From Actinotignum schaalii (GTDB lineage: Bacteria; Actinomycetota; Actinomycetes; Actinomycetales; Actinomycetaceae): a stretch of 64,000 bases of DNA. The translations under genes were made by a program, and so were the position numbers. Of this stretch, positions 1 through 64,000 are shown piece after piece. How positions within the stretch are numbered: the stretch's first letter is position 1; every line of letters begins with the position of its first letter. The stretch covers positions 124,001 through 188,000 of the forward strand of contig NZ_CP008802.1 of assembly GCF_000724605.1 (NCBI RefSeq). The letters are read 5' to 3'. The notes beneath the pieces are model-generated. The model was not told the DNA's origin, did no database searches, and worked only from the letters and a program-made list of their open reading frames with translations.

Positions 1-1
1 C

Positions 2-1498
2 GCCTTCGGGGCGATTCCTTTTGGTCCCCTGAAATTTGGGGCAGCGGGGGCGCTTTTCATCGGTTTGCTCGTCGGCGCGGTGGTACCGCCTTCCACTTCG
101 CTTCTTGTGCTGCTGCAAGACCTAGGCCTGGGAATTTTCGTTTATATGATCGGCTTGGAAGCCGGGGAAACATTCTTCCAGGAGATCCGCAAACAGTTGG
201 GCCTCATGCTCGCCTCGGTTATTGCGATTACAGCCGGGGCGGCAGCAGCGGTGGGACTGGGGGAACTCCTCGGTTTGCTCCGCGGTACCGCCGTGGGTGT
301 TTTCGCCGGCTCGCTTACTTCCACTCCCTCGCTTGCACTCGCCCAGGAAATGACCGATCCGGATAACCCCGCGGTGGGCTATTCCATTGGTTATCCGGTC
401 GGGGTCACACTCGCCATCGTCATGGTCGCTATCTTCATTAACCGGGAATGGAAAGCACGTAACGACCAGCTTGACCCCGATGATGTGGAATTGGAACAGG
501 CAACCGTCTACGTGGACCGGGAAATCTCCGCGGAGCAGATGCGGGATATCGCCGGCCAGCAGGTGCGATTCGTAGCCATGCGGCGCAATAGGCGCTGGCA
601 TGTGCTCGATATGGAACGCGCTCTAGAACCGGGGGACCGGGTTCGTATTTTCGCTTCCCGAGCCGCACTTTCCGAAGCTATTGAACGCCTGGGCAGCCGT
701 ATGCGCCATCGGCGCCTGACCGATCCGTATCTAACGGTGCACCGTTTTACGGTATCCAATCGGGATATTGCCGGACTCACGGTGGGTTCCCTCCCGCTCT
801 ACCGCCGCTTTGAAGCGCGCGTAACGGTGATTCGCCGTGCCGACGATGAAATCCTGGCCACCCCGGATACCTACCTGGAAATGGGCGACGTGGTAGAGGT
901 CGCCCTACCCACCTCACGGGTCGAGGAACTCGAAGAATACTTCGGCGATTCGGTCTCCAGCTCCTCGGAACTTGACTGGGTGGCGGCAGCCGGTGGGCTT
1001 GCCCTCGGCTTCGCCCTCGGACTGGTGGAAATCCCGCTTCCGGGTGGCGCGGCTTTCTCCCTGGGTGCGGCCGGCGGCCCGCTCGTCGTGGGGCTGATCC
1101 TCGGGGCGGTGCACCGCACCGGTCGGGTGCCCTGGCAGCTCCCGCGCCCCGCGAATCTCACCCTGCGCCAGTTTGGGCTCATGCTCTTCCTCGCGGCGGT
1201 GGGCCTCAACTCCGGTTCGGCTTTCGCCTCCACCGTCTTCACAATGGTGGGCTTGAAATCGTTGCTCTTGGCCGCAGCGGTGAGCATCGTCGGATGCGGG
1301 GTTATGATGGCGGCCGCCTGGATCCTCGGTTCCTCGGCCACTCGTTCTTCTGGTGCGGTGGCCGGGCTGCTCGGCCAGCCGGCGGTGCTGTCCTACGCCA
1401 CCTCGCGCACCACCGATAACCGGGTGATGACCGGCTACGCCACCACCTTCGCGATTGCGCTCATTTATAAGATCGTCGTCGTCCCCTTCATGTTCTAG
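2..1498 (+). CDS. AspT/YidE-type putative transporter (5' partial)
   Basis: Membrane protein of the aspartate-alanine exchanger (AAE) family, which also includes YidE and YbjL. The reading frame is open to the window edge, so the true start lies upstream. Family layout is visible: a hydrophobic N-terminal half, a central soluble part with two TrkA-C/RCK-C-like domains (roughly residues 165-230 and 245-305 of the visible protein), and a hydrophobic C-terminal half with small-residue-rich helices. AAE proteins exchange amino acids or dicarboxylates across the cytoplasmic membrane; the substrate here cannot be read from sequence. It ends 163 bp before smc and is probably a separate unit, because smc has its own -10 box. 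This is not a usual smc neighbour. Confidence 0.85.
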   Translation, partial: AFGAIPFGPLKFGAAGALFIGLLVGAVVPPSTSLLVLLQDLGLGIFVYMIGLEAGETFFQEIRKQLGLMLASVIAITAGAAAAVGLGELLGLLRGTAVGVFAGSLTSTPSLALAQEMTDPDNPAVGYSIGYPVGVTLAIVMVAIFINREWKARNDQLDPDDVELEQATVYVDREISAEQMRDIAGQQVRFVAMRRNRRWHVLDMERALEPGDRVRIFASRAALSEAIERLGSRMRHRRLTDPYLTVHRFTVSNRDIAGLTVGSLPLYRRFEARVTVIRRADDEILATPDTYLEMGDVVEVALPTSRVEELEEYFGDSVSSSSELDWVAAAGGLALGFALGLVEIPLPGGAAFSLGAAGGPLVVGLILGAVHRTGRVPWQLPRPANLTLRQFGLMLFLAAVGLNSGSAFASTVFTMVGLKSLLLAAAVSIVGCGVMMAAAWILGSSATRSSGAVAGLLGQPAVLSYATSRTTDNRVMTGYATTFAIALIYKIVVVPFMF

Positions 1499-1661
1499 GA
1501 ACCCGTAACGATGCGTCGCACCGTCGCACCTTAGCCGCACGCCGTTACCGGTGTCTGTCGCCCAGCGCCGGCGTGCCACGAATGGCGCCGGTGCTCCGTG
1601 GCACCGTATCGACGCCACGTCGGAGTCCCACCGGTGGCGCCGTCTGGCATAATCTGTAATC
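1499..1661 (+). other. aspT-smc intergenic region
   Basis: No gene seen. It holds several copies of the window-wide GCACCGT motif (for example in gtcgcaccgtcgcacc and gtggcaccgt) and ends with the smc -10 box. Confidence 0.6.
1648..1653 (+). promoter_or_regulatory. -10 box of smc (leaderless)
   Basis: CATAAT lies 8 nt before the GTG start of smc and no Shine-Dalgarno sequence is present. This suggests transcription begins at or next to the start codon. Confidence 0.6.
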
Positions 1662-5219: not shown

Positions 5220-5261
5220 GACTTACGTTGCAGTTCGGTAACAATTCCGCTCGCGGGCGGG

Positions 5262-5927: not shown

Positions 5928-5937
5928 AACCTTCTAG

Positions 5938-8925: not shown

Positions 8926-8937
8926 CGACGACGGCGC

Positions 8938-8975: not shown

Positions 8976-8984
8976 GCCACGTGG

Positions 8985-11130: not shown

Positions 11131-11790
11131 ATGCAACTGACGGTAGCTATTATCGGGGCGCCGCACGGACTCAAAGGGGAAGTCCGCCTGGATGTGCGCA
11201 CGGATTCACCCGCACGCCGCCTCGCGGTCGGGACCCAGCTAGAAACCGATCCGGCGGATTTCGGGCCGCTCACCATCACCCGCACCCGCGAATACCGGGG
11301 AGTCACCTACGCGCTCTTCGCTGAATCAACCACCCGCGATACCGCCGAAGCACTGCGCGGGGTGCGACTCATCGTGGAAACCGATGAAGACGAGCCCGAA
11401 GAAGACGCCTATTACGCCCACGAGCTACGCGGTCTGGAAGTACTCGACCCAGAAGGCTACGAGCTCGGAATTATCACCGGTTTGGAGAATGGCCCCGCCC
11501 AGGATGTCCTGGTGGTGCGTGAGCCTGATGGCCGCATTGCCCGCGTTCCCTTTGTCCGTGAGATTGTGACCGCCGTGGACCTGGACGACCATTGCGTCGT
11601 TGTGGATGCCCCGGCCGGGCTTTTCTCCGATGATGACATGATCGTGGTGGAAGGTGATGACCTGGCCGGTGCCCTCAGTGCGGCGGGGGAAAGTACCCCG
11701 GGGGAAAACGGCGCAGGTGAAAGAGGCGCGGAGCAAAGCACTTCCGAGGCGAACGCTATGGAGGAAGACGGTGCGGAGGACGCTGAGTAA
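11131..11790 (+). CDS. rimM: Ribosome maturation factor RimM
   Basis: 30S assembly factor that acts on the S19-containing head. The N-terminal RimM domain (GAPHGLKGEVRLD near residue 10) is followed by a PRC-barrel domain (YYAHELRGLEVLD to about residue 175). The last ~40 residues form an acidic Gly/Ala/Glu tail that includes ENGAGERGAE and EEDGAEDAE and carries the ACGGYGC repeat. ATG 11131 follows AGAAGGAC. The stop overlaps the trmD start. Confidence 0.96.
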   Translation: MQLTVAIIGAPHGLKGEVRLDVRTDSPARRLAVGTQLETDPADFGPLTITRTREYRGVTYALFAESTTRDTAEALRGVRLIVETDEDEPEEDAYYAHELRGLEVLDPEGYELGIITGLENGPAQDVLVVREPDGRIARVPFVREIVTAVDLDDHCVVVDAPAGLFSDDDMIVVEGDDLAGALSAAGESTPGENGAGERGAEQSTSEANAMEEDGAEDAE

Positions 11791-13337
11791 TGGCGGGCTT
11801 GCGCATTGACCTTGTCTCGGTTTTCCCGGAATTCTTCGATGTTCTCGATTTGTCACTGGTGGGCAAGGCGCGCCGTCGCGACGTCGTCGATATTCGCACC
11901 CACAATCTGCGCGACTGGACCAGCGACGTCCACCGCACCGTGGACGATACCCCCATCGGGGGCGGGGCCGGCATGGTCATGAAACCGGACGTCTGGGGCC
12001 GTGCACTCGACGACCTCATCGGCTCGAGTGCCCCGGAAACAATCACCCTCGCTATTCCCACCCCCTCCGGGCGGCCCCTCACCCAGCGCCTCGTGGAAGA
12101 CCTGGCAACCCGGGAACGGATCATCATCGCCTGCGGTCGCTACGAGGGAATCGATGCGCGGGTAGCTGAACATTACCGCGGGCACGGGGTGCGCGTAGAG
12201 GAGTTTTCCCTCGGGGACTATGTCCTCAACGGTGGGGAAGTGGCGGCAGTTGCTCTCGTGGAGGCGGTTACTCGCCTCATTCCCGGCATGGTGGGTAACC
12301 CGGAGTCCCTCGTGGAAGAATCGCACGGCGCGGCGGGTCTGCTCGAATACCGTGTCTACACCCGCCCCGTTAGCTGGCGCGAGCTCGAGGTACCCGCGGT
12401 GCTGCTGAGCGGTAACCACGGGGCGGTGGCGCGCTACCGGCGCGACGAAGCTATTGCGCGCACCGCCGCGCGCCGTCCCGATATGATCGCGGAGCTGGAT
12501 ACCTCGCAGCTGGACAAACACGACCGGCCGGCGCTCGCGGCGGCGGGTTATGTATGGCGCACCAGTGACCCCCATCCGGTAGCGGTGGATACTGAGGTGC
12601 TGGGGGCTGCTGGCGCCGTCGTTTCTGGCGATGGGGCGCGACCGGACGGTGCGCTTTCGTGTGAGGCACTCGAGAATGGGGCGTTACCATACGGCGCGGT
12701 CCCGAACGATACGCGACCGGACGGTGCGTTCCCGGACGGGGCGCGACGGCGCATCGCAACCGAGCTGGCTGAGCTGGCCACTCGCACCTTCCCCGATGCG
12801 TGCCCGCGTTACCTCAGCGAGTCGGATATCGCCGCTTTCGTGGCTGAGAACCTCTCCGTCGCAGCTTTCGAAAACTACCTTGCTGATCCGCATTGGATGG
12901 CGGTGGCGGTGCGTGCCGCGAGTGGAGAGTCGCGCGAGGAATTGCTGGGGTACAGTCTCACCTTGCTGCCCGATAGCGTGGTGGGAATGGGGGGCGACGA
13001 CGTAGCCGGGCGTGAGGACGGTGCGCCATTCATGCATCTTCCGGATCGAGACGGCCCGTTGCTCGAGCTCTCTAAGTTCTATGTGGAGCACAGCTGGCAC
13101 GGGAGCGGGGTAGCGGATCTGCTCTGGCGGGCAACGGTGGAGGCGTGCCGGGCACGAATCCCGGACGCCGATGCGGCGCCAGCACCCTACCTGTGGCTCG
13201 GAACGAATAAAGACAACCGGCGCGCTCAGCGCTTCTACAAACGCTGTGGCTTCCGAAAAGTCGCAACCCGAGAATTCCAGGTGGGTGAGGTAGTCAACTC
13301 GGATCTTATTTTTGCCTGTCCGCTGACTGTGGCATAA
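11790..13337 (+). CDS. trmD: tRNA (guanine-N1)-methyltransferase TrmD fused to a GNAT acetyltransferase domain
   Basis: Residues 1 to about 255 are a complete TrmD, which makes m1G37 in tRNA using S-adenosylmethionine. The trefoil-knot motifs are present: TPIGGGAGMVM, IIACGRYEGIDARVAEHY and EFSLGDYVLNGGE. Residues about 270-320 form a linker of imperfect (P)DGA/NGA repeats. Residues about 320-510 resemble a GNAT N-acetyltransferase, with LELSKFYVEHSWHGSGVADLL as the acetyl-CoA loop region and NRRAQRFYKRCGF near the end. TrmD is normally about 230-270 residues, so at 515 this is a fusion. No stop or start signal separates the halves. The acetyltransferase substrate is unknown. Confidence 0.93.
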   Translation: MAGLRIDLVSVFPEFFDVLDLSLVGKARRRDVVDIRTHNLRDWTSDVHRTVDDTPIGGGAGMVMKPDVWGRALDDLIGSSAPETITLAIPTPSGRPLTQRLVEDLATRERIIIACGRYEGIDARVAEHYRGHGVRVEEFSLGDYVLNGGEVAAVALVEAVTRLIPGMVGNPESLVEESHGAAGLLEYRVYTRPVSWRELEVPAVLLSGNHGAVARYRRDEAIARTAARRPDMIAELDTSQLDKHDRPALAAAGYVWRTSDPHPVAVDTEVLGAAGAVVSGDGARPDGALSCEALENGALPYGAVPNDTRPDGAFPDGARRRIATELAELATRTFPDACPRYLSESDIAAFVAENLSVAAFENYLADPHWMAVAVRAASGESREELLGYSLTLLPDSVVGMGGDDVAGREDGAPFMHLPDRDGPLLELSKFYVEHSWHGSGVADLLWRATVEACRARIPDADAAPAPYLWLGTNKDNRRAQRFYKRCGFRKVATREFQVGEVVNSDLIFACPLTVA

Positions 13338-34476: not shown

Positions 34477-34510
34477 CTGCGGGGCACCGTATTCGCTCCG
34501 GGCACCGTGC

Positions 34511-34570
34511 TGCGCCTCGTATGCACCGTGTTGCGCCGTATGTGCCTCGTATGCACCGTGTTGCGCCGTC
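34511..34570 (+). repeat. 30-bp tandem repeat upstream of proS
   Basis: Two head-to-tail copies (34511-34540 and 34541-34570) differing at two positions, sharing CCTCGTATGCACCGTG and TTGCGCCGT. It contains the GCACCGT heptamer. It is non-coding if proS starts at 34633. Confidence 0.9.
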
Positions 34571-34619
34571 GCCCCTCCGCCACCAGTGCCGCGCCGTCGC
34601 CCCGTTCCCGGCAAGCGGG

Positions 34620-34625
34620 TAGAAT
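34620..34625 (+). promoter_or_regulatory. -10 box of proS (leaderless)
   Basis: TAGAAT lies 7 nt before GTG 34633. This supports 34633 as both transcription and translation start and makes the frame back to 34507 non-coding. Confidence 0.65.
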
Positions 34626-34632
34626 GGCGGGC

Positions 34633-39139: not shown

Positions 39140-39203
39140 GATTCTCCGCTTTCTTGACGAGAATAAAACCGCTTACATTGTGCCACCTTCGTCGGTCCTG
39201 GAG

Positions 39204-39257
39204 ACGGTGCGCGCGCGGATAACGGTGCGCGCGCTGATGACGGTGCGTGGCGCACCG
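39204..39257 (+). repeat. 18-bp triplicate repeat upstream of rimP
   Basis: Three copies beginning ACGGTGCGCGCGCGGATA, ACGGTGCGCGCGCTGATG and ACGGTGCGTGGCGCACCG. A further pair, TGCACCGTGGGC at 39287-39298 and 39314-39325, is spaced 27 bp. All contain the ACGGTGC/GCACCGT heptamer. Confidence 0.85.
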
Positions 39258-39368
39258 TGCCACCGTTGGCAACGGCGGGTGATACCTGCACCGTGGGCAA
39301 CGGCAACGCTAACTGCACCGTGGGCGCCGTCTGGCACGCCCGTGTACCACGGTGCGGCGCGGAAACTG

Positions 39369-39374
39369 TAGGAT
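39369..39374 (+). promoter_or_regulatory. -10 box of rimP (leaderless)
   Basis: TAGGAT, 6 nt before the ATG at 39381. It would drive rimP-nusA-ylxR. Confidence 0.65.
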
Positions 39375-39380
39375 TAGCCC

Positions 39381-41490: not shown

Positions 41491-44400
41491 GTGGCAAAAG
41501 TCCGCGTCCATGAACTCGCCAAAGAACTGGGGGTGACCAGCAAGAAGCTGCTGGCTACGCTCAAGGAGAATGGCGAATTCGTCAAATCTGCCTCGTCCAC
41601 CATTGAGGCACCTGTTGTGCGTAAAGCACGTGAATACTTTGAAGCGCACCCCGAATTGGTCGAATCCAAGGGGAGCGGCAAGCCGGCACCACGCAAGCCG
41701 GTTCGTAAGCATCCTGTGGCCCCCGATGCGGTGGATATGCCCGCCGGTTCGGCCTCGATTGTCGATGTGACGGCGCAGGCGAAGGCCGCCGCGAAATCCG
41801 ATGCGGCCGGTACCGCTGGCACCGGTGCCCCCAAACCCGGCCCGAAGCCGGCCCCGGCCAAGCAGCATGCGGATAGCGCCGCGGCGCCCACCCCGGCCGC
41901 GGTGGCAGGCAGCACCGGGGCTAACGCCGGAACCGCCACTGGCACCGCTGCACCCAAGCCCGGTGCCGCAGCTGGCGCCCACGGCGGGGCAGCCCCGAAG
42001 CCCGGTAAGCCCGGCTCGCAGCAGGCCACGCCGAAACCGGCTCCTAAGCCCGGCGCTCCCGCACCGTCCGGTAAGTCCGGGGAGGCGGGTTCCGCCCAGG
42101 GCTCCGGTGCCTCGCACGGCGGCGCTAAGCCCCAGGAAACGGGGCACGCCGGCCGTTCCAATATTCCTACCCCGCGCGGCGCGGTGAAATCCGCCAAGGC
42201 CGCGCGCGCCGAAGCCGATCAGCGCACCCCGCGCCCCGGCAATAACCCCTACGCCACTTCGCAGGGCATGCCCCGTCCGGGTGGCGGGCGCGGTCCGCGG
42301 CCCGGAAATAATCCGTATGCCACCTCGCAGGGTATGCCCCGTCCGGGTGGCGGGCGCAAGAATACGGGTACTCCCCGCCCCGGTGCGCATCAAGGCGCGC
42401 ATCAGAACAACCACGGCGGCGGGCAGCGCTCTGGTGGCGGGCGCGGGCACGGTGGTTCGCGTCCCTCGCCGGCGATGATGCCTAACCAGATGGCCGGTGC
42501 TCCGTCCTCCGGGCGGGGCGGTCGCGGCGGTGGCCGCGGGCGTGGTCCGGCAGGTGGCGGTCAGAATCGTGGCGGGCAAGGTCGGCCCACGGGCGGCTTC
42601 ACCCGCAGTGGTGGGCGTTCGCGTGGCGGCTCCACCGCCGGTGCTTTCGGGCGCCGTGGAGGCGGCGGGGGTCGCAAATCCAAGCGGACTCGGCGCGAAG
42701 AATACGAAGCACAGTCCTCGCCGATGCTTTCCGGTGTCCAGGTTCCCCGCGGGGATGGCTCCACCGTGGTGCGCCTGCGCCAGGGTGCTTCGCTCGCGGA
42801 CTTCGCCGAACGTATCGGTGCGTCCTCGGCGGCCCTCATCACCGTGCTCTTCCGCATGGGTGAAATGGCCACGATGAACCAGTCGCTGGACGAAGATACC
42901 TTCAAGCTGCTGGGCGCCGAGCTCGGCTACGAGGTTGAAGTTCTCTCCGCCGAAGATGAGGATCGTGAAATCCTGGAGAGCTTCGATATTAACCTCGAAG
43001 AAGAAGAGCTCCTGGAAGACGAAGAGAATCTCAAGCCGCGTCCCCCGGTTGTGACCGTTATGGGCCACGTGGACCACGGTAAAACCAAGCTTCTCGATGC
43101 GTTCCGCCATTCGCGGGTGGAAGGTACCGAATCGGGTGGTATTACCCAGGCCATTGGTGCGTTCCAGACCGATATCGAATACGAAGGCGAAACCCGGGCG
43201 ATCACATTCATCGATACCCCCGGTCACGAAGCCTTCACCCAGATGCGTGCCCGCGGTGCGGATATTACCGACATCGCGATCCTCGTGGTCGCCGCAGACG
43301 ACGGCGTGATGCCCCAGACGGTGGAAGCTATCAACCACGCGCAATCCGCGGGTGTGAAGATCATCGTCGCGGTCAACAAGATCGACGTGGAAGGTGCCAA
43401 CCCGCAGAAGGTGCGCAGCCAGCTGACCGAATACGGCCTCATTGCCGAAGAATACGGCGGGGACACCATGTTCCTCGACGTGTCGGCCAAGCAGCGTATC
43501 GGCATCGACGATCTGCTCGAAGCCATTCTCTACGTGGCGGATGCCGAACTGGAACTCAAGGCCAATCCGGATCGCACCGCGCGCGGCGTTGCCATCGAAG
43601 CGAAGCTCGATCAGGGCCGCGGCTCGGTCATTACCGCCCTGGTGCAAACCGGTACGCTGCGGATCTCCGATCCCATCGTGGTGGGTATTGCCCACGGGCG
43701 CGTGCGCGCCATGTTCGACGCCAGCGGCAACCCGGTCAAGGAAGCCGGCCCCTCCATGCCAGTCCAGGTACTCGGTTTGGACGCGGTGCCCTCCGCCGGG
43801 GATGCCTTCCTGGTGGCGGACGACGAACGCACCGCACGCCAGATCGCCGAACAGCGCGAATCGGCCCAGCGGGCGGCTTCCCTGGCGCGGCGTCGCAAGC
43901 GCGTCTCGCTGGAGAACCTCGGGGATGTCCTCAAGGAAGGCAGCGTCGAAACGCTCAACCTTATTATCAAGGGCGATTCCTCCGGTGCCGTGGAAGCACT
44001 GGAATCCTCGCTCCTCGATATTGAGGTCGACGACGAAGTGGCGCTGCAGATCATCCACCGTGGCGTGGGCGCCATCACCCAGAACGACGTCAATCTCGCA
44101 ACGGTTGATAATGCCGTCATTATCGGCTTCAACGTGCGCCCCGCCGAACGCGTGGCCGATATGGCCGAACGCGAAGGCGTGGAGATGAAGTTCTACTCGG
44201 TCATCTACCAGGCCATCGAGGAAGTGGAAGCGGCCCTCAAGGGCATGCTCAAGCCCGTCCTCGAGGAAGTTCAGCTGGGCAGCGCCGAAGTGCGTCAGCT
44301 CTTCCGCTCGGGCAAGGCCGGCACCATTGCTGGCTCCATTGTCCGCACCGGCGCGATCAAGCGCGGGGCGAAGGCCCGGTTGGTACGCGACGGCGTCGTG

Positions 44401-44559
44401 GTACAACCCGAGCTCGAAATTGTCTCGCTGCGCCGCGAAAAGGACGATGTTACCGAAGTGCGCGAAGGCTACGAATGCGGCATTACGCTTGGCTACCGCG
44501 ATATTCACGAAGGCGACATTATTGAAACCTTCGAGATGCAGGAGAAGGCCCGTAGCTAA
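41491..44559 (+). CDS. infB: Translation initiation factor IF-2
   Basis: GTPase that places initiator tRNA on the 30S subunit. 1022 residues: an N-terminal helical domain ([21 protein letters not shown]), a 340-residue Pro/Gly/Ala and RGG-rich linker, then the G domain with [15 protein letters not shown] near residue 522, DTPGHEAF near 575 and AVNKID near 628, and domains II-IV to the end. The linker has a duplicated 22-residue block ([20 protein letters not shown], encoded at 42232-42363). GTG 41491 follows GAAGGAGAACT. Confidence 0.98.
42232..42363 (+). repeat. 66-bp in-frame duplication within infB
   Basis: Two adjacent 66-bp copies (42232-42297, 42298-42363) encode the same [20 protein letters not shown] block, with about ten synonymous or conservative differences, so the duplication is not brand new. 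Confidence 0.85.
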
Positions 44560-44577
44560 GGGGCTGTCCTGAGGAAC

Positions 44578-44620
44578 GCTGCGGCCCGCCGGCTCGCCAC
44601 TGGCGCTGGCGGGCCGCAGC
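44578..44620 (+). terminator. Hairpin between infB and rbfA
   Basis: Perfect 13-bp stem GCTGCGGCCCGCC (44578-44590) / GGCGGGCCGCAGC (44608-44620) with a 17-nt loop but little T after it. It may be an attenuator or processing signal within the operon. Confidence 0.7.
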
Positions 44621-44648
44621 ATATCCACCAGCAATAAAGGAGACGAAG

Positions 44649-45200
44649 ATGGCTAATCCCCGTGCGGAACGGGTGGCGAAACGTATCCAGCAGATCGTGG
44701 CGCAAACCATTAACACCCGTATGAAAGACCCGCGGCTGAATATGGTGACCATCACCGATACCCGCGTGACCGGCGACCTCCAGCACGCCACCGTATTCTT
44801 CACCGCCATCGGGCACGAACACCAGGTGAAGGATGCCGCCCGCGGACTGGAAGCAGCCAAGGGTGCGTTGCGCTCGGAGGTGGGGCGCCAGCTCGGGTTG
44901 CGGCTTACCCCGACCCTGGAATTCGTGGCGGACGAACTACCCGAAGGAGCCCGCACTTTTGAGGATGTGCTGGCCGCTGCCCTGCACCGTGACGCCGAAT
45001 TGGCGCGCAACGCGGAGGGGAAGGAATACGCGGGGGAGGCTGATCCCTACCGCAAGCCCCGTGAGGTAACGGAGGACGACGGCGCCGCCGCACCGTCAGG
45101 TACCGCCGCACCATCGGGCCCCGTCGCGCCGTCTGTTCCTGAAGCGCCGTTAGCCCCTGAGGCATCTCATGAAACCGATGCGCCAGAATCCCTGGCCTGA
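44649..45200 (+). CDS. rbfA: 30S ribosome-binding factor RbfA
   Basis: Late 30S assembly factor. The KH-like core (RAERVAKRIQQIVAQTIN to ADELPEGARTFEDVL) fills the first 115 residues. A tail of Pro/Ala/Ser repeats (AAAPSGTAAPSGPVAPSVPE) follows, encoded by GCACCGTC-type repeats. ATG 44649 follows AAAGGAG. Its last 32 bp overlap truB. Confidence 0.95.
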   Translation: MANPRAERVAKRIQQIVAQTINTRMKDPRLNMVTITDTRVTGDLQHATVFFTAIGHEHQVKDAARGLEAAKGALRSEVGRQLGLRLTPTLEFVADELPEGARTFEDVLAAALHRDAELARNAEGKEYAGEADPYRKPREVTEDDGAAAPSGTAAPSGPVAPSVPEAPLAPEASHETDAPESLA

Positions 45201-46362
45201 TCTGCCCCGCGCGCAGCATCCAGCGCCGAGCGGCGTCCTGGTTATTGATAAACCTGCCGGGGTGACCTCGCACGACGTCGTTGCCGCGCTGCGCCGTCTA
45301 TGTGGCACTCGCAAAGTGGGGCACGCCGGCACTCTCGACCCGATGGCCACCGGGGTGCTCGTGGTGGGTATCGGCGCCGGTACTCGGCTCCTCACCTACC
45401 TGAGCGGGTCCGATAAAGATTACCGGGCCACGTTCACGCTCGGCATCGGCTCCGATACGGAGGATTGCACCGGTACCGTCACGTCCGCCCCAGGTTTTTC
45501 CGGTACGACGGCGCAGCTCGACGCTGCCCTCTCATCCCTCCAAGGTGATATCTCGCAGGTGCCCTCGGCGTATTCGGCCAAGAAAATCGCCGGGCAGCGT
45601 GCCTACGACCTGGTCCGGGCCGGGCAGCAGGTGGTGCTCGAAGCGGTGCCAATCCATATTGCCCGCCTGGAACGGAGTGGGGAACTCCGCTGGCGCCAGG
45701 TGCCGGTCGGCGGCGTGGCGCTGGGTGGCTCAGCTTTGACGGATGGCACGGCGGCGCTGGGTGGCTCGGCTCTAGCGGATGGCGCGGCGCAATTCGATGG
45801 GGCGGAGCCGGTAGAGGCTCAAGAAGCGGCTGTGCCGGTTGCGGATGTTGATGTGGGGGTGAGCTGCTCCTCGGGTACCTACGTGCGTGCCATTGCCCGT
45901 GATACCGGGATAGCGTTGGGAAGCGCAGCCCTCATGAGCGCGCTGCGGCGTACCCGCGTGGGTGGCTTCCGGCAAGAAGAAGCGGTGAGCATAGCGGAAC
46001 TGGCGCAACTGGTGCGGGGTGGGGCACAGCCCCCCGTTATCCCACTGGCGCAGGTGGCGGCCCGTGCACTCCCGACGGTGCAGATTGCGGCAGCTGAAGC
46101 CGAATCCGCGCGCCACGGCCAGTTTCTTGAGGCACGGGGGAAAACAGTGGCCCCCGCTGCAGGAACGGTCTCGGGAGATGCACACGTCGCCGGAACGGCG
46201 CAGACAGATTCACGTGCTACGGGAACGGTACCGGGACAAGCACCAGCCGCGGGAAACGAAGCTGGCACCGTCGCCCTGCTGCACGGCGATGAGCTTGTTG
46301 CGGTGGCACGCCGGCACGGGGATTCGTTCCGGCCCGCTACCGTATTCCCGCCCGGCGCATAA
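45169..46362 (+). CDS. truB: tRNA pseudouridine(55) synthase TruB
   Basis: Converts U55 to pseudouridine in tRNA. Catalytic Asp is in GHAGTLDPMATGVLVV near residue 45; DKDYRATFTLG and CSSGTYVRAIARDTG are present. Two low-complexity insertions interrupt the fold, one at about residues 183-215 (GGSALTDGTAALGGSALADG) and one at about 325-365 in the C-terminal part, both rich in Gly/Ala/Thr and in ACGGNGC-type DNA. 397 residues against about 300 usually. ATG 45169 overlaps rbfA; ATG 45178 is the alternative. Confidence 0.95.
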   Translation: MKPMRQNPWPDLPRAQHPAPSGVLVIDKPAGVTSHDVVAALRRLCGTRKVGHAGTLDPMATGVLVVGIGAGTRLLTYLSGSDKDYRATFTLGIGSDTEDCTGTVTSAPGFSGTTAQLDAALSSLQGDISQVPSAYSAKKIAGQRAYDLVRAGQQVVLEAVPIHIARLERSGELRWRQVPVGGVALGGSALTDGTAALGGSALADGAAQFDGAEPVEAQEAAVPVADVDVGVSCSSGTYVRAIARDTGIALGSAALMSALRRTRVGGFRQEEAVSIAELAQLVRGGAQPPVIPLAQVAARALPTVQIAAAEAESARHGQFLEARGKTVAPAAGTVSGDAHVAGTAQTDSRATGTVPGQAPAAGNEAGTVALLHGDELVAVARRHGDSFRPATVFPPGA

Positions 46363-46398
46363 ATACATAGATACGTAGGCGCACAGCTGCATAAAAAT

Positions 46399-46433
46399 CC
46401 CCGCGCCGTCACCTCTCGGGTGACGGCGCGGGG
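46399..46433. terminator. Bidirectional terminator between truB and the DUF4862 gene
   Basis: Perfect 15-bp stem CCCCGCGCCGTCACC / GGTGACGGCGCGGGG with a 5-nt loop. On the reverse strand it is followed by GGATTTTTATG, so it best fits the reverse-strand cassette. Confidence 0.9.
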
Positions 46434-46461
46434 TGATGCACGCGCTAGCGATAATGTGCGG

Positions 46462-47361
46462 TTAGTTCGCTACCGCGGCACGGTGGATATGCTCGAGCAT
46501 GGCCACGCGCTCGGGCAAGGAAGCATTGGCCGGCACGCAGATCTTGGCGCCCAGATATTGCGCCCCGCCCTCGCGAGCGGCCGTGGCACAGCGGGTGATT
46601 TCTTCCGCCGTCATAATCGACGTCGGTTCATCGGCCCGCGAGGGGAGATGCCCATCAATCCAGGAGTAGCCGTACTGGGTTTCTGCCGGGCCCGCCCCGG
46701 AGAACATGAGACCGGCGAGCACACCCGCCTGCGCGCATGCCTCGATATGCGCGAAAGCAGTATCAGCGCTGCGCTCCTCAAGTGCGGAGCGGCCCCAGTT
46801 AATATGAATACCAAGACCCAGCTCCTGGCAGAGGGCGATTTCTTCCTCGAGAGGAAGGAAGCCCTTTTCCGGAGCCTGACCTTCGATATAGCGGTCACAA
46901 TGCTCAATCACGGGAACTGCCCCGGACCAATCCCACTCCGATAGCTCGGCGAGGGAGGCGCGGAAAGCTGCGCCGTCGGCCTGCTTGGTGGGGGCCGAAT
47001 GGAGCTGCACCTTCGTGGTGACGGGGCGGCCGCTGAGCTGAGCGAGGGAGGCAATGGCGTCGCGAATCTCGCGTGTGAAAGCGAGAGCGGCCGCGCGGCC
47101 CTCCTCATCGGGGGAAGCCAGTCCGAAAGCCGGGTTCTTGCCGACATTCTGCATGGTGCCAGGAATCGCGGTAATTGTGTTAAGCGTCCAATGCGGGGCG
47201 ATGACGTCCGCGATGGCCTTGGGCTCGCCGGCGAGGACTCCGGGGAAAGGAATCTCGATTCCGGAGACCCATTCCTGCTCCGCCAGCAGGCGATAGTAGT
47301 CAGGTTGCAACGCGGGTTCGGGGAGCGATGCATAAGCCCCAACAACGAAGGGGAGTGTCAT
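46462..47361 (-). CDS. DUF4862 family protein (TIM-barrel-like)
   Basis: 299-residue soluble protein of a family of unknown function with a sugar-isomerase-like TIM-barrel look. Features include IEIPFPGVL early, HCDRYIEGQAPEKGFLPLEE in the middle and LGIHINWGRSALEER later, with a His/Asp/Glu pattern suited to metal or sugar binding. It lies 23 bp downstream of a PfkB sugar kinase on the same strand, so the pair likely forms a small carbohydrate-use operon. A terminator follows. The DUF4862 call rests on recognition of its start (PFVVGAYASLP) and overall layout. Confidence 0.75.
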   Translation of the reverse strand: MTLPFVVGAYASLPEPALQPDYYRLLAEQEWVSGIEIPFPGVLAGEPKAIADVIAPHWTLNTITAIPGTMQNVGKNPAFGLASPDEEGRAAALAFTREIRDAIASLAQLSGRPVTTKVQLHSAPTKQADGAAFRASLAELSEWDWSGAVPVIEHCDRYIEGQAPEKGFLPLEEEIALCQELGLGIHINWGRSALEERSADTAFAHIEACAQAGVLAGLMFSGAGPAETQYGYSWIDGHLPSRADEPTSIMTAEEITRCATAAREGGAQYLGAKICVPANASLPERVAMLEHIHRAAVAN

Positions 47362-54700: not shown

Positions 54701-56749
54701 CTATTCGGTGTCCTCCGGGCTGGGCGCGGACGGGGCGCTTTCGGGCGACGGTGCGGATGGGGCACTGGGTGCGGAGCCTGCGCTCGGGGCGGACGGTGCG
54801 GACGGAGCACTGGGTGCGGACGGCGCAGACGCCGCAGTCTCCGCGCCGTCCGTCTCCTTTTCGTCCATTTCCGCCTCATCCGCCACGGGCTCGCCCACCG
54901 GAGAATGCACCACCTTGAGGGTGCGGTAGCGGTTGAGCGCCGCGGCAATATCCACCGCGCGCGGCCGGGCCAGGAAGGCCGGTTTTTCGCCGGCACCCAA
55001 GGCATCCAGGCCGTGCGTGGCAATGGTCTCCTCCAAGCGTGCAATACCTTCCGGAACGGTGTATCTGCCACGCAGGCACAGAGCGCGGGTGGGGTCGGTC
55101 AGGGAACGGATAGCCCAGGCAATCGCGGCGGTCTGACCCGGATCCACAATCTGGGGCACATCGCTGAGATCAATATCGGCGCGATCCAGAGAAATGAGAT
55201 CCACCCCGCGCGACTTCGTTTTCGCCTTGACCCCGTGGGCCTTGAGGGGGAGCGGGTAGCGCGGCGCCGGGTGTGCAAACTCGGCAATATCGTTGCGCTC
55301 CCGCGGGTGCGCCGCGGCAACCTCGCGGGCCTGCTCCGTGACATCGTGGCACACATAGTGGTCCATAAGGAGCACCCGATCCGCGGCATCCAAGTAATCG
55401 CCCGAGCCACCCATGACCATAATGGTGGAAATACCGGCGCGCGCCATACCTGCCACCCGATCCACAAAAGGCGTAATCGGTTCCTGGTTTGCCGGCACCA
55501 GAGCGCGCATTCGCTCATCACGAATCATGAGATTGGTGGCTGAGGTGTCCTCGTCAATAAGCAAGACCCGCGAACCGGCCTCAATGGACTCAGCGATCGC
55601 GGCGGCCTGCGAAGTAGAACCCGACGCATTTTCGGTGGAAAAATCAGTGGTATCCGTGCCATCGGGCAGGGAATTAATGAAAGCTGAGACATCCACACCG
55701 GTCACCCAGCGCCCGTCGGCGGCGCGCACCTTCATCGCGCTGGGATCCATGGCGACCAGCTCGCGCCCATCCCCGGGAATATGCGCGTAGACGCTGCGCT
55801 CCAGCGCCGAGAGCAGCGTGGACTTACCGTGGTAGCCCCCGCCAACGATCACCGTAATACCGGGAATAACCGGCATGCCGGTCACCTCCCCGGCATGGGG
55901 CAGGCACACGCTTTCGCGCAAATTCTCCGGGCTGGAGAAAGCAATGGCATCACTCAAAGGCAGATCGGAAATACCCGACCGGCGCACCAGTACTGCGCCG
56001 TCGTTAATAAAACCAATCCAGCCGCGTTCCCGAATCACGTCCTGAAGGGCGAGATAATCCTCATACGTTTCCACATGTTTACGTAACGCGTCCCGGTGAG
56101 CTGCGAATTCTTCCCCTTCGGAGGAGAAATTGAGCGTGGCTTCGATGATCTCGGGAAGGTACTCATCGGCGGTTTGGGCCATGGCATGCCCGAGGATTGT
56201 GCGCCCCTGCGCGGGGAAATGACATTGGAAACGCAGCTCCACATGATTGGCGAAAACGGTGGCGCTCGAGCGTTCCAAAATCTCTTGCCCCACTTTCGCG
56301 ATGGAAATATCGCGAGAATGGCGGGCGCGCTCCGCAAAAGTACGGGCTAGGAAATCAGCAACAGCCAGGCGCTGCTCCGGGGTGGTGAGCAGATTAGCGG
56401 GAATCCCCACCTTCGCCGGATCGGCCGTCACCCGCAGCGCGGACGGCGGGGCGTAGGGATCGGATTGCACCCGATCAATATGCACCGTGTACATGCCGTA
56501 GTCGTAATCGCCGATAACAGACTTGTAGGCAGGGTAATTGCGTCCGTCCAGTTCGTGGAGGCGGTCGATAAGGTCGACGTCGTCTCCTTCGACCCGCGCA
56601 AATTCGCGCCGTTCACGGGGCGCCCCGCCCCGCCTATCCCGACGGTCGAATTGGCGATCCCGGCCCCCGCGCGGGCTCCGGCCTCCCCGGTAGTCGCGCC
56701 CGCCGCGGGCATCGTAACGTTCCGAGCTGTGCTCATATCCAAAACTCAT
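54701..56749 (-). CDS. PF09818-type P-loop ATPase with RGG-rich N terminus
   Basis: Predicted ATPase of the ABC-ATPase/MRB1590 family, often misnamed isopentenyl-diphosphate isomerase. From ATG 56749 it has 682 residues. Residues 5-50 are RGG/RDR repeats like an RNA-binding tail. The core has Walker A IVGGGYHGKSTLL near residue 310 and Walker B RVLLIDEDTSATNLMIRD near 400. The last ~45 residues are Ala-Pro-Ser repeats. An mRNA or RNA-protein role is suggested by the RGG tail and by the kinetoplastid relative MRB1590, but not shown. It shares a short divergent promoter region with dapB. Confidence 0.85.
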   Translation of the reverse strand: MSFGYEHSSERYDARGGRDYRGGRSPRGGRDRQFDRRDRRGGAPRERREFARVEGDDVDLIDRLHELDGRNYPAYKSVIGDYDYGMYTVHIDRVQSDPYAPPSALRVTADPAKVGIPANLLTTPEQRLAVADFLARTFAERARHSRDISIAKVGQEILERSSATVFANHVELRFQCHFPAQGRTILGHAMAQTADEYLPEIIEATLNFSSEGEEFAAHRDALRKHVETYEDYLALQDVIRERGWIGFINDGAVLVRRSGISDLPLSDAIAFSSPENLRESVCLPHAGEVTGMPVIPGITVIVGGGYHGKSTLLSALERSVYAHIPGDGRELVAMDPSAMKVRAADGRWVTGVDVSAFINSLPDGTDTTDFSTENASGSTSQAAAIAESIEAGSRVLLIDEDTSATNLMIRDERMRALVPANQEPITPFVDRVAGMARAGISTIMVMGGSGDYLDAADRVLLMDHYVCHDVTEQAREVAAAHPRERNDIAEFAHPAPRYPLPLKAHGVKAKTKSRGVDLISLDRADIDLSDVPQIVDPGQTAAIAWAIRSLTDPTRALCLRGRYTVPEGIARLEETIATHGLDALGAGEKPAFLARPRAVDIAAALNRYRTLKVVHSPVGEPVADEAEMDEKETDGAETAASAPSAPSAPSAPSAPSAGSAPSAPSAPSPESAPSAPSPEDTE

Positions 56750-56756
56750 AACACCT

Positions 56757-56762
56757 AGTCTA
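56757..56762 (-). promoter_or_regulatory. -10 box of the PF09818 ATPase gene (leaderless)
   Basis: Reverse-strand TAGACT, 7 nt before ATG 56749. It is only 11 bp from the dapB -10 box on the other strand, so the two promoters overlap. Confidence 0.6.
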
Positions 56763-56773
56763 TCCAGGCCACG

Positions 56774-56779
56774 TAGCAT
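56774..56779 (+). promoter_or_regulatory. -10 box of dapB (leaderless)
   Basis: TAGCAT, 7 nt before ATG 56787. It includes the first bases of an in-frame ATG at 56778, which therefore is unlikely to be the start. Confidence 0.6.
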
Positions 56780-56786
56780 GGACGGT

Positions 56787-57533
56787 ATGACTATCAACGT
56801 AGCTGTGGTGGGAGCGGCGGGACGGATGGGGAGCACCGTGTGCACCGCCGTCACCGCCGCCCCCGATATGAACCTGACCGCCCGGATCACCAAGGACGAT
56901 CCCATCAACGCCCAGACCCTGGCGGGCGCCACCGTGGGAGTGGATTTCACCGTTCCCGATGCCACGGAAGATACCGTGCGAGCCCTCCTGACTCACGGCT
57001 GCCACGCCGTCGTCGGGGCAACGGGATGGACCCCGGAAAAAATCGCGCGTATTGAGGCGGTGGCCAAGGAAACGGGGCGCCATGTGCTCATCGCCCCGAA
57101 TTTCGGTTTGAGCGCCGTGCTCACGATGATATTCGCGGAAATGGCCGCCCCGTATTTCGAATCCGTCGAAGTGGTGGAAATGCACCATCCCGATAAAGTG
57201 GATGCTCCATCGGGAACGGCGCGCGCCACCGCGGAGAAAATCGCGGCGGCCCGGGCGGCGGCCGGATGCGCACCCGCCCCCGATGCGACCTGCGGGCCGG
57301 CGCCCGCCCGCGGGGAGAAAATTGCCGGCATCCCGGTGCACGCGGTGCGCCTACGGGGCCTGAACGCCCACGAAACGGTGCTGTTGGGCAACCCGGGCGA
57401 ACAGCTCACCTTGCGCCAGGATTCTTTCACCCGCGAATCGTTTATGCCCGGGGTGCTCCTCGCTATCCGCGGCATTGACCAGCATCCGGGCGTGCAGGTG
57501 GGATTAGAGCAGTACATGAGCTGGGGACGATAG
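56787..57533 (+). CDS. dapB: 4-hydroxy-tetrahydrodipicolinate reductase
   Basis: Second step of the lysine/diaminopimelate branch, after DapA. NAD(P)H site VAVVGAAGRMG at the N terminus, substrate site VEMHHPDKVDAPSGTA near residue 130. 248 residues, normal length. I place the start at ATG 56787 because it gives the family N terminus and follows a -10 box by 7 nt; 56778 is in frame. The dapA -10 box overlaps its stop. Confidence 0.96.
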   Translation: MTINVAVVGAAGRMGSTVCTAVTAAPDMNLTARITKDDPINAQTLAGATVGVDFTVPDATEDTVRALLTHGCHAVVGATGWTPEKIARIEAVAKETGRHVLIAPNFGLSAVLTMIFAEMAAPYFESVEVVEMHHPDKVDAPSGTARATAEKIAAARAAAGCAPAPDATCGPAPARGEKIAGIPVHAVRLRGLNAHETVLLGNPGEQLTLRQDSFTRESFMPGVLLAIRGIDQHPGVQVGLEQYMSWGR

Positions 57534-57536: not shown

Positions 57537-57542
57537 GAGCCC

Positions 57543-58451: not shown

Positions 58452-58482
58452 CCGATGCGGGCACGGCGGCAACGGTGGTGGG

Positions 58483-58570
58483 CACCGTGCCGTGCCGTGC
58501 CGCAACGAGGTGGCAGGCCCCGTGCCGCGCCATGCCACAACGAGGTGGGGCGCCCCGTGCCGCACCGTGC
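58483..58570 (+). repeat. 35-bp tandem repeat between dapA and rnj
   Basis: Two full copies (58483-58517, 58518-58552) and a half copy (58553-58570) share CCGTGCCG, TGCC and CAACGAGGTGG. It is non-coding and rich in GCACCGT/CCGTGCC. Confidence 0.9.
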
Positions 58571-58658
58571 ACCGTCGTCGCGGGCTTGCGAGCCACGAGT
58601 TTTACGCCCGGGCATGAAGCACCTATGGAAGCGCCCCGCTTCGTGAGAGAATACAGGG

Positions 58659-60335: not shown

Positions 60336-60384
60336 TCCCCCTCGCATGCGGCGCGCCGGGAGGGGCAAGTTTTTGCACAAAGGC

Positions 60385-60390
60385 TAGGCT
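60385..60390 (+). promoter_or_regulatory. -10 box of ftsK (leaderless)
   Basis: TAGGCT, 6 nt before GTG 60397. Confidence 0.55.
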
Positions 60391-60396
60391 TTTGAT

Positions 60397-63351
60397 GTGA
60401 AGTTTCAGCGACGTGTCAAAAAAACCGAGAAAGAGACGACGGCGCCCGCGCGCCGCCCGTCCCGCCGTACCGCACCGTCCGCTAACGGTGCGGGTACGGA
60501 GCGGGCGGAGGGCCGCCAGTTGACGGGGAACGTGCGCAACGCCCTCGTCGCGACCTTCCTCGGTCTCGCGGTTATCGTGGCACTGCGCGAATGGTTCAAT
60601 ATTTCCGGGGTGCTCGGCGGGGTTATTCACCACGCCACCGCCGGTATCTTTGGGCTACTCTCCGTTCTTATTCCCGCAGTCTTTCTGGCCCTGGCTATCA
60701 GACTGGTGGTTCCGGCACGCGGGAACGAACACCGGCGGGTACTGCTCGGTGTATTGATGATCGTGGTGTGCCTGGCCGGCATTATTCACGTCGTGAAACA
60801 ACCGCGCAGCCCGGCCGACCACTTCGCGGACGTGGAAAACGCCGGCGGCCTGATCGGCTGGCTCGGCGGGGGCGTCCTCGAGATGCTGTTCTCCCCGTGG
60901 GGCGCCGTTCCTATCCTCGTCATTATTATTTTGTGGGCGGGGCTCTATATTGCCGACGTCTCCATGGCGGATATTGCCGCCACCATTCGGGACCGGCGCG
61001 AACAGCGCCAGCTTGATGCGGGGGAGGAGATCGCCAACCGCGGGCATTCCGCATCGGTGCCCTACGATTCCCCCCACGATATTGACGCGGCGGAGAACAC
61101 CACCCGGCTCCCCAGCGCCGGGCGCACGTCGCGGCGCGGCAAGAAATCCGCGCGCAGTTACTTGGATGCGGCACTGTCCGGGGCTTCTTCTGAGCACGAC
61201 GCCGCCGCTACCGATCCCGCCTCCAGTAACGGCGGGAATGGCGCAGACGGGGCAGCGGGGGCCGCCTGGGCAGACGGTGCCAATGGTGCTAGTGGGGCCA
61301 ATGGTGCGCAGGCCCACGGCGCCACCACGGTGCTACCGCAAGCCACGGCGGGCAGCGGGGCGGCGGGCCGGGCGGCGTCGTCGCCGAAAAAAACGGGGCG
61401 CACCAAGAAAAGCGGCAGCGCGGGAGAGACCCAGGATGCGGCGGCCACGGTGCCCGATCTTCCCGCCCCCGATACCGGCGCACCGTTCACCCGCACCCAG
61501 CAACTAGCTCTCGACCCGAGTATTTTGTATGAGCTGCCCTCCCCGGATCTGCTCAAACGCGGGGCGGTGCATCCCGAACGTACCGAGGCAAATGATCGCG
61601 TTGTTGCTGCGCTCACCCAGGTCTTCACCGATTTCGGGGTGGATGCGCAGGTGGTTGGCTTTTCACGCGGACCGACGGTCACCCAGTACGAAGTGGAACT
61701 GGGGCCGGGCGTCAAAGTCGAGCGCATCACCCAGCTCTCGAAAAATATTGCTTATGCGGTGGCAAGCGCCGATGTACGTATTCTTTCGCCCATTCCTGGC
61801 AAATCTGCGATCGGTATTGAGATTCCCAATGCGGACCGTGAAGTGGTGCAGCTAGGCGACGTCTTGGCCTCCGACGTGGCGCGCCGTGACCACCATCCCC
61901 TCACCGTGGCGGTGGGGAAGAATGTGCGCGGGCAGTTCGTGGTGACCAACCTGGCGAAAATGCCGCACCTGCTGGTGGCGGGAGCCACCGGTGCGGGGAA
62001 GTCGTCGTTCATTAACTCGATGATTACTTCGGTACTTATGCGCTGCACCCCGGACGAAGTACGGATGATCCTCGTGGATCCCAAGCGCGTGGAGCTGACG
62101 ATTTACGCGGGTATTCCCCATCTCATCACACCGATTATTACCAACCCGAAGAAGGCTGCCGAAGCGCTGGAATGGGTGGTCAAGGAGATGGATGCGCGCT
62201 ACGACGATATGCAGTCCTACCGCTTCAAGAACATTACCGATTTCAACGAGGCGATCCGGGCGGGCACCGTTAAGGCACATGACCCGCACCGTACCCTCCA
62301 GCCTTACCCCTACCTGCTGGTCGTGGTGGACGAATTAGCCGACATGATGATGGTGGCGCCGCGCGACGTGGAATCCTCCATCCAGCGCATCACCCAGCTG
62401 GCGCGCGCCGCCGGTATTCACCTGGTGCTCGCCACACAGCGTCCCTCCGTGGACGTGGTTACCGGCCTCATTAAAGCCAATATTCCCTCCCGCCTGGCCT
62501 TTATGACCTCCTCGCTGGCCGATTCGCGCACCATTCTCGACCAGGGTGGGGCGGAAAAGCTCATTGGGCAAGGTGACGCCCTCTTCATGCCCGGCGGTGC
62601 CCAGCCGATTCGTCTCCAGGGGGCCTGGGTGGACGAGGCGGAAATTGAGCGCGTTGTCGAGCATGTGAAAACGCAGCTGCGCCCCCAGTACCGCGAAGAT
62701 TTCCAAGAAACGGTGGAGGCCGCCGGGCGCGAAAAGAAACAGCGCGAAGAAATCGGCGAGGATCTCGATATTCTGCTCCAGGCTGCGGAAATCGTGATTA
62801 CCACCCAATTCGGATCCACCTCCATGCTGCAACGTAAATTGCGCATTGGTTTCGCCAAGGCGGGGCGGATGATGGATCTGCTCGAACAATACGAAATCGT
62901 GGGGCCCTCCGAAGGCTCCAAGGCCCGCGACGTACTGGTGGCGCCGGAACTGGTGGAGGATGCCCTTGCCATGCTGCGCGGAGAACGTGAATCTATTTAC
63001 GAGGACGAACCGGGGCAGGCGGAAGCCGGGGCCGGGGCAGCTGGCGCCGGCATGCCGGGAACTGGAGCGCCCGGCGGGGCGAACGGCGCGGCAACGGGGC
63101 ACGGTGCGGACGGCGGGAATGCCGGGAACGGTGCGAACGGCGCCTACGTTGGAAACGGGGCAGGCGGCGCGAACGGTGGTAACGGGGCGCCTAACGGTGC
63201 GAACGGTGCCGGTGCTGGCACCGTGCCCGTGAACCGCTACGCAGAAGATCCGCTGGCACACGACCCGGAGGACACCGCCCCCACCTGGTACGACGATGAT
63301 GATCCCGCCGGTGAATCCGGTGAGGACGCCTGGCAGCTCACGGGGCGGTAA
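60397..63351 (+). CDS. ftsK: DNA translocase FtsK
   Basis: Septal DNA pump that clears the terminus and activates XerC/XerD recombination. Four membrane helices (residues about 50-190), a Gly/Ala/Asn-rich linker (about 255-330, with [18 protein letters not shown]), then the motor: VEHPE-like ERTEANDRV, Walker [17 protein letters not shown] near 526, [18 protein letters not shown] near 645, and the gamma winged helix ([21 protein letters not shown]). A second repeat tail ([19 protein letters not shown]) lies at about residues 905-945, after the gamma domain, which is unusual. Both repeats are built from ACGGTGC. Confidence 0.97.
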
Positions 63352-63354
63352 AGT
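63349..63354 (+). promoter_or_regulatory. -10 box of pgsA (leaderless)
   Basis: TAAAGT, 6 nt before ATG 63361; it includes the ftsK stop codon. Confidence 0.5.
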
Positions 63355-63360
63355 AGGGCC

Positions 63361-63972
63361 ATGTCTCACACGAACGCGCCGGAGGCGAGCGAGCCGCCCC
63401 TCCTCAATATTGCCAATGCTTTGACGGTCGCGCGGATCATCCTCATCCCCGTTTTTGTCTGGGTGTTCTGGGAGCCGACCGCTACCCGCAGCTTCTGGGC
63501 ATGGGTAGTTTTTGCCGTCGCCGCGTTCACTGACCGCCTCGACGGGCAGCTGGCGCGTTCGCGCGGTCTGATTACTAACTTCGGGAAGCTCGCTGATTCC
63601 ATCGCCGATAAAGGACTCATCGCGGCGGCGCTCATTATGCTCTCGCTCCATGACCGGCTGTGGTGGTGGGTCACCATCCTCATGATCGCCCGTGAAATTT
63701 TCATCACGCTGGTGCGGATGCTCGTGGTGACCAAACAGGTCATGGCGGCCGGATGGATCGGCAAACTCAAAATGTTTGCCCAGTCCATCGGCGCCGGCAT
63801 CCTCATGCTGCCGTGGATCGCTTGGCTCGGGCACCCGGGCGGAGACATTTTCCAATGGCTCGGGTGGATCACCCTCGGGGTGGCACTTGTGCTTTCGGTA
63901 TGGTCCGCCGTCGGATACGTCGGCGACGCGGTGCGGATCGCTCGCGGTAGCGACCACGAGGCGCATTCATGA
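63361..63972 (+). CDS. pgsA: CDP-diacylglycerol-glycerol-3-phosphate 3-phosphatidyltransferase
   Basis: Makes phosphatidylglycerol phosphate from the product of CdsA. CDP-alcohol phosphotransferase motif TDRLDGQLARSRGLITNFGK followed by LADSIADK, with all four aspartates at about residues 58-83. Several membrane helices; 203 residues. Found between ftsK and cinA, the common actinobacterial order. Its stop overlaps the next ATG. Confidence 0.95.
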   Translation: MSHTNAPEASEPPLLNIANALTVARIILIPVFVWVFWEPTATRSFWAWVVFAVAAFTDRLDGQLARSRGLITNFGKLADSIADKGLIAAALIMLSLHDRLWWWVTILMIAREIFITLVRMLVVTKQVMAAGWIGKLKMFAQSIGAGILMLPWIAWLGHPGGDIFQWLGWITLGVALVLSVWSAVGYVGDAVRIARGSDHEAHS

Positions 63973-64000
63973 CGACGGCGCAGTCAAGTGGCGCCGCGGA
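63969..64000 (+). CDS. Start of the next gene, probably cinA (3' partial)
   Basis: ATG 63969 overlaps the pgsA stop (ATGA) and opens a frame of ten codons to the window edge. Too short to identify; cinA is expected here from conserved gene order only. Confidence 0.45.
   Translation, partial: MTTAQSSGAA

Follow-up and report, generated by a model that had tools for sequence, protein, structure and literature searches.

The DNA analysed here is a 64,000-nucleotide stretch of the Actinotignum schaalii chromosome (contig NZ_CP008802.1, positions 124,001 to 188,000; hereafter the window). Its genes and gaps are crowded with a short DNA word, ACGGNGC, which is the subject of this study. The gene names ftsK and trmD-GNAT were taken over from the original prediction, and gene calls were made with a simple hexamer caller written for this analysis. 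The features are listed below in window coordinates, and the gap limits given are those used for counting; all other positions are those of the chromosome concerned.

1-64000, no strand: the whole window, interior of a block of about 184 kb that begins about 79 kb ahead of it and ends 40.5 kb past it
1499-1661, no strand: intergenic gap with four ACGGNGC copies, of which two are ACGGTGC
11790-13337, plus strand: trmD-GNAT gene with 13 ACGGNGC copies (8.4 per kb) and a 30-bp array at 12691-12747
34477-34623, no strand: intergenic gap upstream of proS with eight ACGGNGC copies and unlike linkers
34624-36465, plus strand: proS with six ACGGNGC copies, used as the query for orthologous loci
39074-39380, no strand: divergent intergenic gap with eight ACGGNGC copies, including an 18-bp tandem array at 39204-39247
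54701-56854, minus strand: gene with 12 ACGGNGC copies and a 45-bp tandem array at 54720-54823
58452-58658, no strand: intergenic gap with five ACGGNGC copies, partly a 35-bp tandem array at 58474-58570
60397-63351, plus strand: ftsK with 26 ACGGNGC and 13 ACGGTGC copies and a degenerate 9-bp array at 63101-63209

The word and its distribution in the window

The window has 103 copies of ACGGTGC (46 on the plus and 57 on the minus strand), whereas Markov models of order 0, 1, 2 and 3 predict 13.6, 12.1, 20.1 and 28.5 copies. ACGGCGC likewise occurs 103 times, and the total for ACGGNGC is 280. Maximum-order Markov nulls absorb the word and so hide it; they were dropped in favour of lower orders and codon shuffles. 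In the coding DNA of the window 75 ACGGTGC copies were counted against 26.8 ± 4.9 in 300 synonymous-codon shuffles. The original prediction that this heptamer lies far above chance was thus borne out, as were its 13 copies in ftsK (shuffle mean 3.4, maximum 9 in 500) and its abundance in the four listed gaps (2, 4, 7 and 3 ACGGTGC in order of position). A structured RNA was considered and set aside: the window gave no Rfam match at gathering score.

The form of the word was taken from the chromosomal interval 48-232 kb compared with outside DNA (270-2,080 kb). The leading 7-mers were ACGGTGC (258 copies vs 54.0 expected), ACGGGGC (154 vs 24.0) and ACGGCGC (268 vs 110.0). At position 5 every base was enriched in the block (A 2.9-fold, C 2.45-fold, G 6.5-fold, T 4.8-fold) and most other one-base variants were near background, so the word is ACGGNGC/GCNCCGT, asymmetric and with a preference for T and G at N. 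The exceptions among the variants, at 1.6- to 3-fold, were ACGTCGC (2.95), ACGGCGG (2.37), ACGGTGG (2.35), ACGGGAC (2.05), ATGGCGC (1.86), ACGTTGC (1.79) and ACGAGGC (1.64). The 746 ACGGNGC copies at 48-232 kb are balanced between the strands (357 plus, 389 minus). Two further strings were noted there: the hexamer ACGTCG was likewise enriched inside the block, with z 7.2 for the window genome and 8.3 for A. timonense, and GCAGATC seemed commoner inside 48-232 kb than outside in the first samples.

It had been proposed that the DNA spreads rather than the peptide, and our counts agree, because the noncoding DNA and all six coding frames are enriched and the count exceeds a codon-aware null. Noncoding DNA holds 8.76 sites per kb in the block (40-236 kb, 171 sites) vs 1.19 per kb outside (89 sites), a 7.3-fold difference; gap type makes little difference, the block having 9.0 sites per kb in tandem, 6.5 in divergent and 9.3 in convergent gaps. 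In its coding DNA all six frame-and-strand classes stand 1.9- to 6.7-fold above the outside. The codon-usage-aware null named as a test in the original prediction was run on parts of the genome: inside the block it was far exceeded (163 genes, 607 sites vs 281.6 ± 9.8 in 40 shuffles, 2.2-fold), while outside it was nearly matched (444 genes, 520 sites vs 489.3 ± 17.6 in 40 shuffles). The word does not sit mainly in protein insertions. For 77 genes of the block an orthologue was available in the G005 (congener) DNA examined, and 291 of their 343 sites lie in aligned protein segments (2.12 times the shuffle), although the 52 in unaligned segments are denser (7.6 per kb, 2.14 times their own shuffle). 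The corresponding ratios for 78 outside genes with a G005 match were 1.03 (aligned) and 1.47 (unaligned).

Expanding mini-repeats had been suggested as the source of the copies. Such arrays do exist, since 9 of the 20 tandem-array rows in the window carry the word. As the main mechanism they fit poorly: most copies do not stand in head-to-tail arrays with their flanks carried along, and the bases flanking block copies differ little from those flanking outside copies. Mini-repeat expansion is therefore minor, because only 32 of the 280 window sites lie inside arrays and recent gains are not raised (see below). Local duplication contributes, as indicated by an excess of close copies in the same orientation: 268 pairs lie within 60 bp of each other vs 161 expected, 171 in the same and 97 in opposite orientation. 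In the gap upstream of proS the copy number and spacing of the word differ among the window genome, A. timonense and A. sanguinis, and a large part of the divergent gap is missing from A. sanguinis.

A bounded block shared by related genomes

The enrichment had been described as window-wide. It is not genome-wide; the window lies inside a single, sharply bounded block. A two-changepoint fit over 1-350 kb placed the block at 45,001-228,500, with 3.78 ACGGBGC per kb vs 1.12 per kb in the flanks, a log-likelihood gain of 131.2 over a flat model and border support at 43-47 kb and 225.5-229.5 kb. It thus spans about 184 kb, or about 8.5% of the chromosome, and holds some 750 ACGGNGC copies. Word density is intermediate at 24-40 kb. 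When the block was compared with the rest, the top 7-mer reached z 22.8 (window genome) and 20.9 (A. timonense), vs 4.8, 5.4 and 6.2 in three arbitrary non-domain comparisons.

Over the whole chromosome (2,159,306 bp) ACGGTGC occurs 891 times, at 1.61 per kb in the window and 0.38 per kb in the rest. The 897,306 bp that were profiled account for 476 copies, and the remaining 1,262,000 bp for 415. A second block of this size elsewhere on the chromosome is unlikely, since the density of this remainder is only 0.33 per kb. A weaker ACGGBGC bump was seen at 2,088,000-2,126,000 (up to 2.6 per kb); it includes a protein with NGA/DGA-type repeats in its N-terminus. In A. timonense a local bump of 3.6 ACGGBGC per kb, outside the main block, lies at 525,001-535,000 and has no orthologous place in the window-genome DNA examined.

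Judged by eye, the genes of the block are ordinary ones, among them smc, ffh, the rimM-trmD group, proS, infB, ftsK and the mraZ-ftsZ division cluster. At its right border begins a dnaE-like gene (228,586). Just beyond the block, near 243.5 kb, there is a break in synteny with A. timonense, and a transposase-like gene, again judged by eye, stands at this break (243,698-245,263). The two border regions were compared by blastn for a shared boundary element and gave nothing convincing (best 78 bp at 76%). A dif-like site, an exact match to the dif pattern, lies at 529,262 and dnaA at 1,531,748, so the block is situated in mid-replichore, about 301-484 kb from the dif-like site. Explanations by origin, terminus or strand were rejected, as the block lies mid-replichore and the orientation of the word is balanced.

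Five genomes were profiled regionally, those of the window, A. timonense, G002, A. sanguinis and the congener G005, and the block is present in the first four. The bacteria with this word-rich block are a urinary-tract group. In A. timonense it was fitted at 1,980,501-2,181,000, which is 203-404 kb from a dif-like site at 1,777,384, with dnaA at 721,205. Its borders align with those of the window genome (1,977,101-1,982,267 with 227,055-232,176, and 2,177,372-2,180,614 with 43,961-47,183), so the two species whose block could be compared at both ends have homologous borders. The block of G002 covers about 928-1,131 kb, with borders poorly fixed because little flanking DNA is covered, and that of A. 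sanguinis begins at 42-65 kb and extends to the contig end. Two outgroups lack it. In G005, whose proS DNA is 72% identical, ACGGTGC occurs 229 times vs 410 for the reversed control, and the orthologous 140 kb has no comparably enriched word (top 7-mer z 4.9). Actinobaculum massiliense is without enrichment in the genome-wide count of ACGGKGCGS (129 vs 146 for the control) and in its 21.8-kb proS locus (ACGGTGC 0.32 per kb). G003 has 847 copies by whole-genome count. Whole-genome counts are not diagnostic, because among 200 genomes of the window's family several other genera (e.g. g4, g9, g22) also have ACGGTGC well above the reversed control; only a regional profile is informative.

Elsewhere on the chromosome, a CRISPR-like repeat with about 50 copies in the DNA examined fills a noncoding stretch around 1,246,382-1,251,771. 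Its 16-mers match a 29-bp repeat reported for A. schaalii DSM 15541 (PMC5720513).

Constraint, gains and losses

Divergence of the word was measured at synonymous third positions under its six core bases, with a codon-matched expectation. Against A. timonense 63 changes were observed vs 117.9 expected (0.53, z -5.5), against G002 139 vs 230.4 (0.60, z -6.9, the most extreme of 60 same-letter words) and against A. sanguinis 86 vs 123.1 (0.70, z -3.9). The corresponding ratios at the N position were 0.99, 0.98 and 0.91. The core is constrained and N is free. In a control that takes account of the next base, the word came second to GACGNCG in the comparison with A. timonense (z -5.1 and -5.2, respectively). 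With the same control and with overlaps with GACGNCG removed, the all-N core gave 59 changes vs 101.0 expected inside the block and 31 vs 37.5 outside, and the ACGG[TG]GC core 27 vs 53.8 inside and 18 vs 18.1 outside. For the latter the contrast of inside and outside amounts to about 2.2 standard errors, which is suggestive of domain-specific constraint on the word. The estimate for the outside moved as the analysis grew, from 11 vs 11.7 at first to 36 vs 50.7 with more data and 18 vs 18.1 (T/G) after controls. At N inside the block, T was kept (5 changes vs 14.2 expected) and C changed above expectation (8 vs 3.6).

GACGNCG itself is strongly conserved at synonymous positions (0.55 inside the block, 0.42 outside). 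A second over-represented family, CGACGRCGC, was also noted, for example CGACGACGC (232 copies) and CGACGGCGC (246 copies) in 897 kb; it is not confined to the block, and CGACGACGC is commoner on the lagging strand (136 copies) than on the leading strand (96).

Gains and losses were polarised with G002 and compared with those of same-letter control words. On the window branch 49 losses were found vs 77.6 expected (0.63), whereas the controls average 1.32 times expectation, and the word ranks fourth of 60 from the low end. The A. timonense branch shows 27 gains and 51 losses. When a change at N is counted, ACGGTGC alone has 23 losses vs 31.0 expected, whereas for ACGGCGC losses are 19 vs 33.1 and gains are raised (28 vs 11.8). 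Copies of the word are thus lost about half as fast as usual, and their stock is not visibly growing.

A candidate chromosomal address and its alternatives

We tentatively favour the reading that the block is a dense array of recognition sites for a predicted DNA-binding factor that would mark one chromosomal domain, though we would not call it probable. The ACGGNGC copies, lying on both strands, would act as a lineage-specific DNA 'address' of the block of about 184 kb. A putative sequence-specific protein would read the sites, and its binding would give the whole domain some common property, for example in its folding, anchoring or segregation, by a logic like that of MatP/matS with far denser and shorter sites. 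Selection, rather than conversion bias or history, would keep the word; this is supported by the constrained core, the free N and the reduced losses. If so, the block might represent a new kind of bacterial chromosomal domain, in which about 184 kb of housekeeping DNA with fixed borders carries a word written by synonymous choices for a putative reader protein, a possibility that we raise with some reserve.

Several observations weigh against such a marked domain. The block lies at neither dif nor dnaA. The predominance of the same orientation among close pairs is a trace of local duplication. With GACGNCG overlaps retained, the core outside the block is also low against A. timonense (36 vs 50.7, z -2.2); whole-word change is nearly equal inside and outside (0.146 and 0.142); and GACGNCG is similarly constrained on both sides of the borders. 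Uniform weak selection should raise gains, but recent gains numbered 25 vs 21.0 expected while the controls average 1.34 times expectation (rank 37 of 60, high first). Losses exceed gains, 49 to 25, and less so in the controls (1,685 to 1,369). The losses of ACGGGGC are not reduced (24 vs 19.3 expected, a change at N counted as loss). No binder of the word turned up, and no search aimed at one was made.

The main rival is an old, decaying burst, which we consider rather unlikely but by no means negligible: a regional process, such as a mobile or mutagenic element or gene conversion, would have spread the word in the ancestor of the four genomes and then stopped, so that copies are slowly lost and some kept for other reasons. 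Gains at background and higher losses on both branches are what it expects, and the many close same-orientation pairs and the greatest density in noncoding DNA and unaligned protein segments are consistent with it. However, a neutral relic would predict neither losses at about half the control rate nor a constrained core with a free N, and the large share of sites in G005-aligned protein segments is hard to reconcile with an insertional burst. Expanding mini-repeats or a local mutational bias, the leading idea of the original prediction, would likewise explain the arrays with the word, the same-orientation preference and the dense unaligned segments. We regard it as improbable, as arrays hold only a minority of the window sites, one-base variants mostly lack enrichment, flanks are little different from those of outside sites, gains are not raised, core positions are constrained and the sharp borders are conserved in A. 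timonense.

Two further explanations concern DNA from elsewhere. The very sharp borders, and the lack of enrichment in the deeper congener G005, could mean that about 184 kb entered the ancestor of the clade from a donor that carried the word in abundance throughout its genome. No donor was seen, and a foreign block was rejected as block and surroundings hardly differ: GC content at third codon positions is 0.736 in the block and 0.734 beyond it, and the median identity of G005 matches is 65.1 inside (70 genes) and 67.9 outside (71) for matches of at least 50%, or 64.2 (86) and 61.6 (111) for all matches. Such an introgression is quite improbable. Still less credit is due to the bolder idea of the original prediction, a DNA uptake sequence spread by natural transformation, although the word is short, dense and on both strands and the window was said to carry comM and dprA (names unconfirmed in this analysis). 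Enrichment confined to about 8.5% of the chromosome and the lack of excess gains fit it poorly. Nor does the block look like a hot spot of recombination: its synonymous divergence from A. timonense, which uptake should have lowered, is 0.116 inside and 0.105 outside, and a recombination-hot domain was rejected on the same figures. An uptake role is very unlikely.

Several known systems are similar in part. In the Ter macrodomain of E. coli, matS is a 13-bp site with 23 copies in 800 kb at the terminus and flanking insulator sites (PMC3330122). Like matS, ACGGNGC is repeated within one large domain with defined limits, to which it is confined in the profiled DNA apart from the minor bump at 2.09-2.13 Mb. 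Unlike matS, it is no 13-bp terminus site but 7 bp, asymmetric and present in hundreds of copies within about 184 kb, 301-484 kb from the dif-like site. The two would seem to share only the logic of domain confinement. The E. coli system MaoP/maoS acts from a single site. MaoP/maoS also resembles the proposed system in that one chromosomal region is organised site-specifically, namely the Ori macrodomain (PMC5023128), whereas our word forms a dense array far from dnaA. AIMS and KOPS are, like ACGGNGC in our reading, short chromosomal words held to be kept by selection, and AIMS are strand-biased and rise towards the terminus (PMC5993296). Unlike them, our word has no leading-strand bias (in 897,306 bp, ACGGTGC 232 leading and 244 lagging, ACGGGGC 152 and 121) and ends at two borders, with density back to background about 301 kb before the dif-like site. 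DNA uptake sequences are spread over the whole genome. ACGGNGC is enriched in one block instead, with ACGGTGC at 0.38 per kb outside the window and 1.61 per kb inside, though it is a short over-represented word like those of Neisseria and Pasteurellaceae (PMC2397512, PMC1939737). HIP1 of cyanobacteria is also a short GC-rich word in very high copy number, an 8-bp, methyltransferase-linked palindrome common across the genome (PMC4390886); ACGGNGC is neither palindromic nor common across the genome.

A search of open-licence PubMed Central (PMC) text gave no report of such a domain or word, and GCACCGT as a whole word matched no paper. We know of and found no system in which one short asymmetric word is repeated hundreds of times within one sharply bounded block, which is no proof that none exists. 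If the block is a relic instead, it would record how a motif once spread in a burst through one region, and we know of no process to explain this. Bacterial chromosomes are held to be organised in domains, but few domain-defining sequences are known, and the word array would, if truly an address, offer a domain whose limits and reader are open to direct tests. It would then also show that codon choice within a single block can be shaped by an address at the DNA level.

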